A program made the position numbers and the translations under genes. A stretch of 14,948 nt of DNA from Spirochaetaceae bacterium (GTDB taxonomy: Bacteria > Spirochaetota > Spirochaetia > Treponematales > Treponemataceae): NCBI GenBank assembly GCA_017382775.1, contig JAFNZQ010000159.1, forward strand, positions 1-14,948. Reading direction: 5' to 3'. Positions 8,438-11,764 of the stretch are shown piece by piece. The notes below the pieces were generated by a model. It saw nothing but the letters and a program-made list of their open reading frames with translations. It was not told the DNA's origin and did no database searches. The first letter of the stretch is position 1; each line of letters opens with the position of its first letter.

Positions 8438-9672
8438 GAAAAATTTCTTTTATACAGAAAGTTTTTATTTCATTCTTTGGGGGAATTATCCTGGGATTTG
8501 TTTGTTTCCGAATGGATGCGACGGAATTTGTAATAAATTACGTTAAGCCCTTCGGGACGATTTTTATAAATCTTTTGAAATTTACCTTGGTTCCGATGGT
8601 TTTGCTGTCCCTAACCGACGGAATTGTCTCTTCCGGAAACATGCGGCGGTTGGGAGTTGCCAGCGGAAAAACTGTTGTGCTTTTTGTGGCCACTTCCGTG
8701 GTTGCAGCCTTTATCGGAATTTTTTTCGCAACGCTTTTCAAAAACCTGGGATGGTTCCCCGATGGGATTGCTTCCGGTGCTCAATGGAACCCATCGCCGA
8801 AATTAAGTTTTATGGACAACTTGGTGGCGATTTTTCCCGATAATATGCACAATGCCTTTGCCACAAGTTCCATGATGCAAGTGATAGTCATTGCCTTTCT
8901 TTTGGGCGGATCCATAATTGCGGCTAAGGAAAAAGGGATTTTGGCACGAGAAGTGCTGCGATCTTTTTTTTCAGTTGTGCAAAAGTTGATTCAATTTGTT
9001 ATTTCCCTCAGCCCAATCGGTATTTTTGCAATGATGGCTGACGTTGTGGCCACACAAGGAGTTGAAATTCTCGGATCACTGGCAATAGTTATTTTGTGCG
9101 CCTATGTGGGATACATTGTCCACATAATAGTCGCTTTCCCGATTATGACATTTTTGTTGGCCAAAATTTCTTTGTGGAAATATTTTAAGGTGGCATCGCC
9201 CGCATTGATTTTTGCCTTTACCACAGCATCTTCCACAGCGACACTTCCTTTATCAAAGGATTGTTCCGAAAAATTAGGGTGCGAACCCGGGATTGCATCC
9301 TTTGTTCTTTCATTGGGAGCCAGCATGAACTTAAACGGAACTTCCATTTATCATGCTGTTGCAATAGTGTTTTTATCATCACTTTCCGGAGCAGATTTTT
9401 CCATGGCACAAATAATAATGGCAACGTTGACTGCAATGATTGCCACCATGGGTGCGGCAGGAGTGTCGGGAACGGCGGTTCTAATGCTGGCAATGGTTTT
9501 GGAACCCCTGGGAATCCCGCTGGATTTGATAATGATAATTTACGGAATAGATAGACTTTTCGATATGGGACGCACAGCATTGAATGTGGGTAGCAATATT
9601 TGCATTTCTCTCGTTGTTTCAGAATCGATGAAACCAATTTCCACGGAGCCAAAGTTTGAACCAAAATGTTGA
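8434..9672 (+). CDS. Dicarboxylate/amino acid:cation symporter (DAACS family)
   Basis: Inner-membrane secondary transporter of 412 aa with the GltP/DctA fold: several hydrophobic helices, the serine-rich hairpin TASSTATLPLSKD (residues 264-276), the second hairpin GAAGVSGTAVLMLAMVLEP (340-358), and the TM8 motif DMGRTALNV (377-385). Asp377, Arg380, Thr381 and Asn384 correspond to GltPh D394, R397, T398 and N401. The retained Arg points to an acidic substrate such as aspartate, glutamate or a dicarboxylate. Two sodium-site aspartates look replaced: the usual NMDGT motif reads NLNGT (Asn301), and the Asp eleven residues after D377 is Asn388. ATG 8434 overlaps the malQ stop, with GGAAG upstream. 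Substrate and coupling ion are uncertain. Confidence 0.9.
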   Translation: MRKISFIQKVFISFFGGIILGFVCFRMDATEFVINYVKPFGTIFINLLKFTLVPMVLLSLTDGIVSSGNMRRLGVASGKTVVLFVATSVVAAFIGIFFATLFKNLGWFPDGIASGAQWNPSPKLSFMDNLVAIFPDNMHNAFATSSMMQVIVIAFLLGGSIIAAKEKGILAREVLRSFFSVVQKLIQFVISLSPIGIFAMMADVVATQGVEILGSLAIVILCAYVGYIVHIIVAFPIMTFLLAKISLWKYFKVASPALIFAFTTASSTATLPLSKDCSEKLGCEPGIASFVLSLGASMNLNGTSIYHAVAIVFLSSLSGADFSMAQIIMATLTAMIATMGAAGVSGTAVLMLAMVLEPLGIPLDLIMIIYGIDRLFDMGRTALNVGSNICISLVVSESMKPISTEPKFEPKC

Positions 9673-10408
9673 CCTTAATGCCAAAGTGACGAAACTGTAC
9701 GGATACGTTAAACGGGCGCGAAAATGCTATATTTATACGGAAAAAGGTGTGCGTCTTACGGATATGCATCTGCAAGGCGGACGAGCCATACTTGGTTGGG
9801 GCGAAGGAGGTGCTCGTTCCCAACTGAAGGATTCCTTGGCGCAGAATCACTCCGGAATGCTTCCCGGTCGCCATCGGAATCGGCTAAATCGGGTTTTGAA
9901 GGAACTTTTTCCTGCATTTGAACACTTCGCCTGCTTTTTTGATTATCAATCCGCCGAATTGTTTCTTGAAAAAATTGGAATTGAGACTTTCTCAGTCATT
10001 TTTCCCTTGCACAGCGGCGATTGTGAAAATTCTTCTGCAGCGATAATTATTCCGCCCTTCCCCTTCGGAGAAATAACCATAGTCGCTTTCAATTCGGAAA
10101 ACCCAATTCCCGTGGAATGTAATGTTCCGGGGGCAATATTGGCCGCCGTTACGAAAGCCTTTTACGATTCCAAATCAGAAAAATTTCAGCCCACGGAAGA
10201 GGCTCTCCGCAAATTTGACGACAAAATCGGTCGTTTTTGGACACGGGATAAAATGCTTTTGTTTCCCAAAATTTCCGAAAAGGATTATCCCGATTTTTTT
10301 TCGGAATGTTTACATCGCAAAATTTTGATTTCGCCTTGTTTTTCCGCTCCATCCTTTTTACCCCATTGGGCAAATTCCGGCGATTTGAAAGGCCTATTGG
10401 AAATTTGA
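9656..10408 (+). CDS. Conserved hypothetical, shrunken aminotransferase-like protein
   Basis: A 250-aa soluble protein with no signal peptide or membrane segment. The N-terminus (about residues 17-49: RARKCYIYTEKGVRLTD then GGRAILGWG) resembles the opening of class III PLP aminotransferases. The C-terminus (KILISPCFSAPSFLPHWANS, 222-241) resembles their closing segment. The middle is far too short for a complete PLP domain, and no PLP-lysine signature is seen, so catalysis is doubtful. The start is TTG 9656: GGAG at 9645-9648 lies 7 nt upstream, and the only in-frame alternative nearby (GTG 9686) has no SD. It overlaps the transporter's last 17 nt and probably depends on translational coupling. 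The aminotransferase resemblance is from memory, not a search. Real function unknown. Confidence 0.75.
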   Translation: MNQNVDLNAKVTKLYGYVKRARKCYIYTEKGVRLTDMHLQGGRAILGWGEGGARSQLKDSLAQNHSGMLPGRHRNRLNRVLKELFPAFEHFACFFDYQSAELFLEKIGIETFSVIFPLHSGDCENSSAAIIIPPFPFGEITIVAFNSENPIPVECNVPGAILAAVTKAFYDSKSEKFQPTEEALRKFDDKIGRFWTRDKMLLFPKISEKDYPDFFSECLHRKILISPCFSAPSFLPHWANSGDLKGLLEI

Positions 10409-10464
10409 TTTTACCCACATTTTTTCTCGCATCGTCATCTCAACCCGGCGAAAGACGAACAGGG

Positions 10465-10491
10465 CAACTATTCGAATTTTTAGAATAGTTG
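10465..10491. repeat. AACTATT palindrome, copy 1
   Basis: CAACTATTC (10465-10473) and GAATAGTTG (10483-10491) form a 9-bp stem around a 9-nt T-rich loop. It is the first of three related hairpins in the gap after the aminotransferase-like gene. Its arms differ from copy 3 by only a few bases, which suggests duplication of one element. Confidence 0.6.
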
Positions 10492-10507
10492 GGGATGATA
10501 CATCCCC
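10491..10507. repeat. GC-rich hairpin GGGGATG/CATCCCC
   Basis: Seven perfect base pairs around an ATA loop, directly abutting copy 1 (they share G10491). It is not followed by a T run, so it is not an obvious terminator. Confidence 0.55.
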
Positions 10508-10530
10508 GGTTCTTGAAACAAAGGCGGTGA

Positions 10531-10559
10531 GCAACTATTAGAAAAATTGCAACAGTTGC
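10531..10559. repeat. AACTATT palindrome, copy 2 (imperfect)
   Basis: GCAACTATT (10531-10539) pairs with AACAGTTGC (10551-10559) with one A-C mismatch. It shares the AACTATT core and the adjacent purine-rich loop with copies 1 and 3 and looks like a diverged member. It runs into GCGGCCGC at 10558-10565. Confidence 0.45.
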
Positions 10560-10571
10560 GGCCGCGAAGTT

Positions 10572-10598
10572 GAACTATTCGAATTTTTCGAATAGTTC
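10572..10598. repeat. AACTATT palindrome, copy 3 (perfect 12-bp stem)
   Basis: GAACTATTCGAA (10572-10583) and TTCGAATAGTTC (10587-10598) are perfect complements around TTT, followed by GTTTT. It could act as a bidirectional terminator for the malQ cluster. A 6-bp helix GGTGAG (10526-10531) with CTCACC (10607-10612) could enclose copies 2 and 3 in a branched RNA fold, sharing G10531 with copy 2. Confidence 0.6.
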
Positions 10599-10627
10599 GT
10601 TTTCCCCTCACCTGGCACATCTCCCAC

Positions 10628-10656
10628 TTGACAAAAAAATAAAGATATGATAGAAT
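10628..10656 (+). promoter_or_regulatory. corA operon promoter
   Basis: TTGACA (10628-10633), a 17-nt spacer and TAGAAT (10651-10656) predict a start near 10663. That gives a leader of about 110 nt before corA, holding a short ORF and a hairpin. Confidence 0.7.
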
Positions 10657-10684
10657 ACTAACGGTAGTTTACATTGGAGGTAAT

Positions 10685-10720
10685 ATGGAGGATTATCCGA
10701 GTAAAAACAACTCAGATTGA
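10685..10720 (+). CDS. Candidate 11-aa leader peptide upstream of corA
   Basis: An ATG with GGAGG (10676-10680) 4 nt upstream opens a frame reading MEDYPSKNNSD, ending in TGA at 10718-10720. It lies between the promoter and corA. Two acidic residues next to a proline at the N-terminus resemble the MgtL leader of Salmonella, whose acidic/proline start destabilises ribosomes at low Mg2+. Only 2 nt separate the stop from the hairpin before corA, so a ribosome finishing this ORF would cover the 5' arm. A role as Mg2+-responsive attenuator or coupler is inference; the ORF is too short for coding statistics. Confidence 0.5.
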   Translation: MEDYPSKNNSD

Positions 10721-10722
10721 GC

Positions 10723-10759
10723 CAAACCTGACAACCTTTTCGTCAAATCGTCAGGTTTG
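10723..10759 (+). promoter_or_regulatory. Leader hairpin abutting the corA Shine-Dalgarno
   Basis: CAAACCTGAC (10723-10732) and GTCAGGTTTG (10750-10759) are perfect 10-bp complements around a 17-nt loop. No T run follows, so it is not a Rho-independent terminator. The corA SD (GAGGAGG, 10761-10767) begins two nt after the stem, so folding could affect ribosome loading. Leader translation would unwind the 5' arm. Confidence 0.6.
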
Positions 10760-10771
10760 CGAGGAGGAATT

Positions 10772-11764
10772 ATGATTACATTTTGGCAACAAATTGATGG
10801 AATGCTCCAAAAATGTGACAAAACGGGGATCGACCCCGAGAAAAACCTGTGGGTGGATGCACGGTCTGTGACCAAAGATGATATTACCGTTCTGCGTAAC
10901 GATTACGGAATAGAAATGGATGACATAGTCGACATTTTGGACCAAGAAGAACTTTCCCGTGTGGAAAGAGACGACAGCTACACACTTATTGTGCTTCGAG
11001 CCCCGGTGGCATCCGATGATGCCGGCGTCCCCTATTTCACCGTGCCCCTGGGAATTGTATTCTATGGGAAAGCCCTCATCACTGTATGCTGGACGGACTG
11101 CGAAGTTCTACGGGGAATTTCATCCCGCCGCATAAAGGATTTGGACCTAAGCGATTTTGCAGCCTTTGCAATACAAATATTAAACCGGTCATCTTTGCTG
11201 TTTTTGCGGTGTCTAAAAGAAATAAATCGACGCTCAAATGTAATTCAAAATGAATTGCAAGTGTCCATCGAAAACGATGCTCTATTGGAGCTGCTGAACT
11301 TGGAAAAATCCCTGGTGCTGTTTACAACCAGCCTTTCCAGCAATCAGCTTTTAATTGAAAAACTTTTGCGTTCATCCATTCTGACTTGGGATCAAAACGA
11401 CCGCGAATGGCTTAACGATGTTGAAATTGATAACAGACAGGCGATTGAAATGGCACGAACATACAGCAATATTTTAATGGGGACAATCGAAAGTTTCGCA
11501 TCGGTTATTTCCAACAACCTTAACGTTATAATGAAAAAACTCACGGTAATCTCCCTGGTTTTGATGATTCCGACCTTTATTGTGAGTTTCTTTGGGATGA
11601 ACGTGCCTCTTCCCTTTGCCGGGAAAGGTCACTTGGGAACCGTAATTATATCCGGAATATGCATCGTAAGTATGTGTATAGCGACACTTTTCCTTCGAAA
11701 TAAGCCCGTTCAGACATTGCGACGATATCACCGGAGCAAAAATCGAAAAGGTGGATTAAAATGA
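10772..11764 (+). CDS. corA: CorA-family Mg2+/divalent cation transporter
   Basis: Inner-membrane channel of the CorA/Mrs2 family, 330 aa, normally a homopentamer importing Mg2+ (sometimes Co2+ or Zn2+). A long acidic and helical cytoplasmic domain (about 1-250) is followed by two membrane helices (about 254-274 and 287-307) joined by the signature GMN at 275-277. The periplasmic loop reads GMNVPLPFAGKGH rather than the MPEL type, as in the broader CorA subgroup, so cation preference is uncertain. A basic tail (RRYHRSKNRK) ends the protein. ATG 10772 follows GAGGAGG; an in-frame TTG at 10757 lies inside the hairpin and is rejected. It heads the operon and its stop overlaps the next start (ATGA). 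Its leader carries a short ORF and a hairpin. Confidence 0.93.
   Translation: MITFWQQIDGMLQKCDKTGIDPEKNLWVDARSVTKDDITVLRNDYGIEMDDIVDILDQEELSRVERDDSYTLIVLRAPVASDDAGVPYFTVPLGIVFYGKALITVCWTDCEVLRGISSRRIKDLDLSDFAAFAIQILNRSSLLFLRCLKEINRRSNVIQNELQVSIENDALLELLNLEKSLVLFTTSLSSNQLLIEKLLRSSILTWDQNDREWLNDVEIDNRQAIEMARTYSNILMGTIESFASVISNNLNVIMKKLTVISLVLMIPTFIVSFFGMNVPLPFAGKGHLGTVIISGICIVSMCIATLFLRNKPVQTLRRYHRSKNRKGGLK

Follow-up and report, generated by a model that had tools for sequence, protein, structure and literature searches.

A conserved acidic-start leader ORF ahead of corA and mgtE in Treponema and its relatives, a candidate Mg2+-responsive leader peptide

In a Spirochaetaceae bacterium, the gene for a CorA-type Mg2+ transporter is preceded by a short open reading frame (ORF) with its own Shine-Dalgarno (SD) sequence and by an inverted repeat. 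This arrangement raises the question of whether translation of the leader controls the transporter according to Mg2+. The locus lies in a stretch of 14,948 nucleotides (the window) from a genome of 1.44 Mb that is 81.5% complete and belongs to the family of Treponema. We lean toward the explanation that the ORF encodes an MgtL-like, Mg2+-responsive leader peptide, which would act through ribosome drop-off when Mg2+ is low, would raise corA expression under that condition and probably evolved independently. A sequence-only reading had already described the SD, the 11-codon ORF and a 10-bp stem ahead of the corA SD, and its coordinates and description were borne out when the sequence was read again (Table 1). 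The 5′ arm of the stem begins 2 nt past the leader stop, and the corA SD begins 2 nt past the end of the stem. Promoter-like sites numbered 3 in the 601 bases scanned, against 1.1 expected by shuffling. Nothing in the window reached the gathering score of an Rfam family, and a permissive search of 10600–10800 returned only the abiF RNA family, at 21.2 bits where the cut-off is 37, and a hit to a lncRNA (E 1.1). This weak abiF hit, at 10727–10756 with E 0.12, is probably due to chance. A reading as an intrinsic terminator was dropped because both terminator-like sites within 10300–10900 sit on the minus strand.

Two further features were observed upstream. A palindromic repeat, AACTATTCGAATTTTTCGAATAGTT, occurs in two copies ahead of the corA promoter (10466–10490 and 10573–10597). 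Of 57 matches across the genome of the window (G000 contigs C56, C57, C152, C161, C239 and others), about 55 are due to this repeat, which is in places arrayed in units of about 105 bp (L007: period 106, 2.3 copies). An ORF of 250 amino acids at 9656–10408 is without a Pfam match.

Table 1. Elements of the corA leader region, in window coordinates
Feature	Position	Strand	Basis
Promoter TTGACA-17-TAGAAT, TG before second hexamer	10628..10656	+	consensus scan only, 11/12 matches
SD of leader ORF, GGAGG	10676..10680	+	sequence
Leader ORF MEDYPSKNNSD, 11 codons, ATG at 10685, stop TGA 10718–10720	10685..10720	+	sequence; similar leaders in relatives; profile test
5′ arm of 10-bp stem, CAAACCTGAC, proposed anti-sequestor	10723..10732	+	sequence, folding
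5′ side of sequestor helix, 10735–10742 and 10744–10749, T10743 bulged	10735..10749	+	folding
3′ arm of 10-bp stem, GTCAGGTTTG	10750..10759	+	sequence, folding
3′ side of sequestor helix, contains corA SD AGGAGG at 10762–10767	10760..10767	+	sequence, folding
corA, CorA-type Mg2+ transporter, 330 aa, ATG at 10772	10772..11764	+	Pfam PF01544, E 1.1e-51

The 10-bp stem exceeds chance: when the 111-nt leader was shuffled 2000 times by mononucleotide, a perfect stem of at least 10 bp arose in 4 cases. As a whole, the leader folds with an energy only slightly out of the ordinary (z −1.60, equally low in 16 of 200 shuffles), and the stem region, 10718–10775, has a z of −2.03 (7 of 200 shuffles). Folding also revealed a second helix that was absent from the earlier description. 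It comprises 14 bp with one bulged base, pairing 10735–10742 with 10760–10767 and 10744–10749 with 10754–10759, and it buries the corA SD. Nucleotides 10754–10759 are common to this sequestor helix and the 3′ arm of the 10-bp stem, and the two folds are mutually exclusive. The 10-bp hairpin is the weaker of the two, with −13.3 kcal/mol against −16.8 for the sequestor, and the ensemble energy is −34.0 with the sequestor and −28.5 when the 10-bp stem is forced. When the transcript was lengthened step by step, the 10-bp stem was the best fold at 10759–10761 and the sequestor took over from 10763. Deletion of the RNA up to 10731, mimicking a ribosome at the leader stop, also led to the sequestor. 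The AGGAGGA of the corA SD has a mean unpaired probability of 0.14, and at equilibrium this SD was masked in every modeled state, whatever the leader ribosome does; because of this, the anatomy of the window fits a translational attenuator only with kinetic folding.

The corA upstream regions of relatives were compared. CorA was found in 49 of 59 genomes of relatives and, by rank, in 217 of 274 genomes at family level, 104 of 194 at order level and 41 of 247 at phylum level; further CorA loci came from the best 80 of 200 named loci, and upstream regions were read for part of the CorA-positive genomes. SD-preceded short ORFs with an acidic start were then scored with a caller that was written after corA leaders had been seen and is thus shaped on these data, on a set from which duplicates and loci with less than 110 nt upstream had been removed. 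The sequence-only reading had staked itself on conservation of the ORF among relatives, and the ORF is conserved: leaders were called at 73 of 134 distinct loci of the Treponema family (f1), at 35 of 43 in three other families of the order (f3–f5) and at 3 of 4 in two further families of the class (f11, f13), the fourth, MSTTDDGGS, falling below threshold. None was called at 9 loci in other classes. The controls gave 0 of 95 inside corA and 1 of 190 on the reverse complement. At several of the loci without a call, which number 61 in the Treponema family, promoter-like sequence was seen by eye near the corA SD. The position of the leader stop, also expected to be kept, is not conserved, and 13 of 106 corA leaders extend beyond the corA start.

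The starts of these ORFs fall into recurrent forms. MD[STAP][DEY]PGS occurs in many genera of the Treponema family and MDxGSS-(x)-Y[PH] in many Treponema; MPDPDS, MPDSDx and MDPDGS are found in f3 and f4, MSDxD(G/D)GGS in f5 and some f3, and MDETPGS, MDDGS and MSTTDDGGS in the two further families. Single examples are MDSDPGS at L010, MDTDPGS at L091 (Brucepastera parasyntrophica), MPDPDS at L210 and MDGGSSYP at L064. On the CorA tree, leader presence is clustered, with 14 changes against 26 in shuffles. The figure of 14 is too high because in six rows labeled as lacking a leader one is visible by eye or present in a near copy (L017, at a contig edge; L028, with a weak SD; L041, a near-duplicate that was removed; and L272, L274 and L275, which were not given to the caller).

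The RNA around these ORFs is less constant. Among 103 leaders, each compared with 60 shuffles and with the short leaders L011, L012 and L180 left out, the SD of the leader paired with the region from leader start to corA SD better than expected (mean z −1.66, 43% at p ≤ 0.05), and pairing of the corA SD was weaker (mean z −0.81, 22%). The window leader SD is without a significant stem (z +1.1). RNAalifold returned a stem on the leader SD in three groups and a hairpin on the corA SD in f5, and the MDxGSS leaders that carry YH yielded no consensus fold. The stems show modest covariation, with mixed controls: A2 has 3 pairs with two-sided changes, a number reached in 16 of 500 shuffles and again upon sliding by −1, and A3 has 6 such pairs (30 of 500 shuffles), with 7 upon sliding by −1. 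Equilibrium folding of 106 leaders showed no common switch direction. A ribosome placed at codon 6 opened the corA SD in 19 of 106 and closed it in 9 of 106, and one placed at the stop opened it in 13 of 93 and closed it in 5 of 93. The 10-bp stem of the window had been expected to be a conserved, covarying element; the leaders of relatives that were read by eye did not show it, other pairings being dominant there, and many relatives pair the leader's own SD instead. The constant part is the start of the peptide, and the RNA device varies.

In family f4, RNAalifold paired GCCCCC within the leader with GGGGGC at the corA SD, with a two-sided change in only 1 of 13 pairs, and this is noted as a lead only. 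The second half of the f4 leader (e.g., PPFLRWPPR) is coded over the GCCCCC (L036, L037, L202, L204, L209–L213, L223 and L227).

The leader-SD stem in many relatives and the consensus folds would also agree with conservation of an RNA element, riboswitch-like or formed by the leader-SD stem, in which the ORF is incidental or serves only to open the RNA. Codon-level differences bear on this alternative. Over codons 2–7, third positions varied more than first and second positions in three of four groups (differences at positions 1, 2 and 3 of 0.20, 0.11 and 0.43 for MDxxPGS; 0.33, 0.31 and 0.54 for MDxGSS; 0.16, 0.15 and 0.35 for MSDxD), and in MPDxD the third-position excess was not clean (0.30, 0.17 and 0.30). 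In a control stretch 45 to 22 bases upstream, the three values lay between 0.60 and 0.75. The synonymous share of codon differences in the four groups was 0.47, 0.53, 0.39 and 0.34 in frame and 0.05–0.28 in the other frames, a difference that speaks against an RNA element, as does residue 5 of MDxGSS, which is Ser in 35 of 35 leaders and is written with TCG (17), AGT (12), AGC (4) and TCC (2), switching between TCN and AGY. These patterns are given without p values because sequence pairs are not independent. They point to selection on the leader peptide. The codon of Ser7 in the MDxxPGS group, AGT in 32 of 35 leaders, would favor the RNA element; elsewhere several synonymous codons are used. 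No Rfam family was matched at gathering score in the 20 relatives searched, as in the window, and this too stands against an RNA element, which we regard as improbable.

The leaders were then sought without reference to the gene that follows. The pattern of an SD and MDxDPGS gave 18 matches in 270 family genomes, all before corA. An SD with MSDxD..GGxS gave 11 matches in 194 order genomes, 10 before corA and 1 before mgtE; the product of this mgtE carries the Pfam domains MgtE, MgtE_N and CBS, and its genome is without a corA match at 1e-60. A looser pattern in the same 194 genomes gave 8 matches, comprising 4 corA sites already counted and 4 sites before mgtE. Combined, the three patterns mark 33 distinct sites, 28 before corA, 5 before mgtE and none elsewhere, and reversed patterns gave no matches. 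A search for mgtE in the order found the gene in 73 of 194 genomes. The caller, unchanged, took leaders at 21 of 70 distinct mgtE upstream regions, the controls being 1 of 70 for the reverse complement and 0 of 30 within mgtE. An acidic pair is present in 16 of the 21, and forms include MSDSDGGGS, MDDPDGSTDYHI, MNDSDGPGSSQPPEP and MGDGSSSGSYPG. At mgtE locus L356, the leader reads MGDGSSDGSYPG. No leader was called at eleven mgtE loci (L337–L347) from two genera of the family, g16 and g20.

Two side observations concern these loci. A second form of mgtE leader, which the caller does not take, has its acidic stretch further in (e.g., MSLRKTGDTDSDPYGSKN) and an ATG, GTG or TTG start; it was seen at nine loci (L310, L311, L315, L316, L321, L329, L330, L335 and L358). 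Genera g16 and g20 are also without this type of corA in the family genomes listed.

CorA and MgtE are unrelated protein families. The same type of leader before both therefore points to their shared substrate, and it is the strongest single argument that the leader may have a role connected with Mg2+. Judged from sequence comparison, the leader kind is conserved in position, constrained at the level of the peptide and specific to Mg2+ transporters in the class of Treponema and its relatives. A Mg2+-linked leader peptide can be inferred with good reason because an acidic-start ORF is conserved, the peptide is constrained and the leader recurs before mgtE. To this extent the sequence-only reading stands, and the 10-bp hairpin and the stop position fall away from it.

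How the leader could respond to Mg2+ is suggested by its first residues. In E. coli, according to PMC11282234, ribosomes can be stalled or dislodged, although not always, by acidic residues that follow one another directly or with a single residue between them close to the start, and the EPDP of MgtL is the motif for ribosome drop-off at low Mg2+. The window leader begins E2 D3 Y4 P5, with an acidic pair and a proline. Within the first 10 residues, an acidic pair is present in 27 of 34 f1 leaders not belonging to the MDxGSS group (27 with Pro) and in 31 of 35 f3–f5 leaders (21 with Pro), compared with 12 of 136 ordinary N termini (5 with Pro). In the MDxGSS group of Treponema the pair occurs in 4 of 37 leaders, none with Pro. 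Conservation of the acidic, proline-bearing start, which had been predicted, is thus seen outside this branch and fails within it; the MDxGSS branch may either sense by other means or have lost its sensitivity. The EttA family TIGR03719 scored above cut-off in 16 of 21 genomes searched and not in the incomplete genome of the window, an observation that decides nothing.

The MDxGSS branch, whose peptide is constrained although the acidic pair is missing, would be more readily explained if the leader is a real regulatory one that does not sense Mg2+ through ribosome destabilization but stalls on another signal (another divalent cation, charged tRNA or translation capacity) or merely couples the transporter to ribosome supply. 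The further apparent constraint on Y-[HP]-x-[CR] in some groups also fits such a signal. Against it, the leader precedes two unrelated Mg2+ transporters and the acidic pair is frequent outside MDxGSS, and we consider another signal unlikely, with a small but real share of the probability.

Does the window itself carry a genuine member of this leader kind? With a profile of 92 leader starts from which the window ORF was excluded, that ORF ranks at the top of the window's 24 SD-preceded ATGs, and its score of 6.4 bits is exceeded by 1 of 564 non-leader candidates from relatives. The top 54 rows of the profile search, at 13 bits or more, are all corA leaders, one row being the second start of a leader already counted. 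The distance of the window ORF from these clear leaders may reflect a copy that has decayed, or an ORF that arose by chance, with corA under the hairpins alone or uncontrolled, even though the leader kind is real in relatives. This alternative would also account for the ORF being the shortest among 106 leaders, for the missing leader-SD stem and for the long branch (1.2) of the window CorA, and the set searched was without a congener of the window organism. It is countered by the retention of the SD, the position, the acidic pair and the Pro, by the rank of the ORF among the candidates of the window, and by the Y-P-S that the leader has in common with L021 (MDTYPSSY) and L050 (MDPYPSCS). The CorA proteins of these two loci, and of L013 (MDTYPGSS), belong to the same 18-row group as the window CorA (support 91/85, not starred). 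Decay or chance is, in our judgment, quite improbable, if a little less so than a conserved RNA element, and we take the window copy as what appears to be a divergent member of the leader kind.

For a Mg2+-responsive leader peptide, the following course of events is proposed. At low Mg2+, the acidic, mostly Pro-bearing start would make ribosomes fall off, in the manner of the EPDP motif in MgtL. For the window, complete translation of the leader would place a ribosome over 10723–10732, so that the sequestor takes the corA SD and corA expression stays low. If the ribosome is lost at E-D-Y-P, the 5′ arm would stay free; the 10-bp stem would form first, the sequestor would be delayed or prevented, and corA expression would be high. 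In relatives with other layouts, the signal may act via the stem that masks the leader SD, and where leaders overlap the transporter gene, ribosomes would run across the corA start.

A broader proposal, on which our opinion is evenly divided, is that the Treponema lineage has an old ribosome-based Mg2+ sensor, independent of that of enterics, in which a family of acidic-start, G/S/P leaders would control corA and mgtE. The output RNA device would have been exchanged between genera and the peptide kept, the exchangeable devices being the leader-SD stem, the overlap with the transporter start or a pair of sequestor and anti-sequestor as in the window. MgtL and CorL have been described in enteric bacteria, and because of this, Mg2+ sensing via unstable leader translation could look like a local invention. 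If the proposal is true, a leader of this kind in another phylum, on two unrelated Mg2+ transporters, would mean that the solution recurs. About 100 natural variants, including a branch without the acidic pair, would then make the sequence rules of ribosome destabilization by the nascent chain directly testable.

A limited literature search showed no spirochete corA or mgtE leader among the titles listed. M-box and the mgtA leader are Mg2+ riboswitches of Rfam that act as 5′ control elements of Mg2+ transporter genes. The leaders described here differ from these in that neither the window nor the 20 relatives gave a match at gathering score and in that the conserved part is the start of a peptide. 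In the enteric corA leader, according to PMC11552253, the ORF lies within a stem that masks the SD of this same ORF, and the start codon of E. coli corL is UUG. A short ORF before corA is common to both, and the layout of many relatives here looks similar to the enteric one, with a predicted stem on the leader's own SD. The window departs from CorL in its lack of a significant leader-SD stem. To MgtL of E. coli and Salmonella mgtA, the likeness lies in a short ORF with an SD immediately ahead of a Mg2+ transporter gene, which holds in the window and in relatives, in acidic residues and Pro at positions 2–5 (EPDP in MgtL, EDYP in the window) and in alternative mRNA folds downstream (PMC11282234 and PMC11552253). 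In contrast, the transporter is CorA or MgtE and not MgtA, the phylum and the peptide are different, and the folds in the window act on the corA SD. Given the taxonomic gap and the different transporter, an origin independent of the enteric MgtL is plausible.
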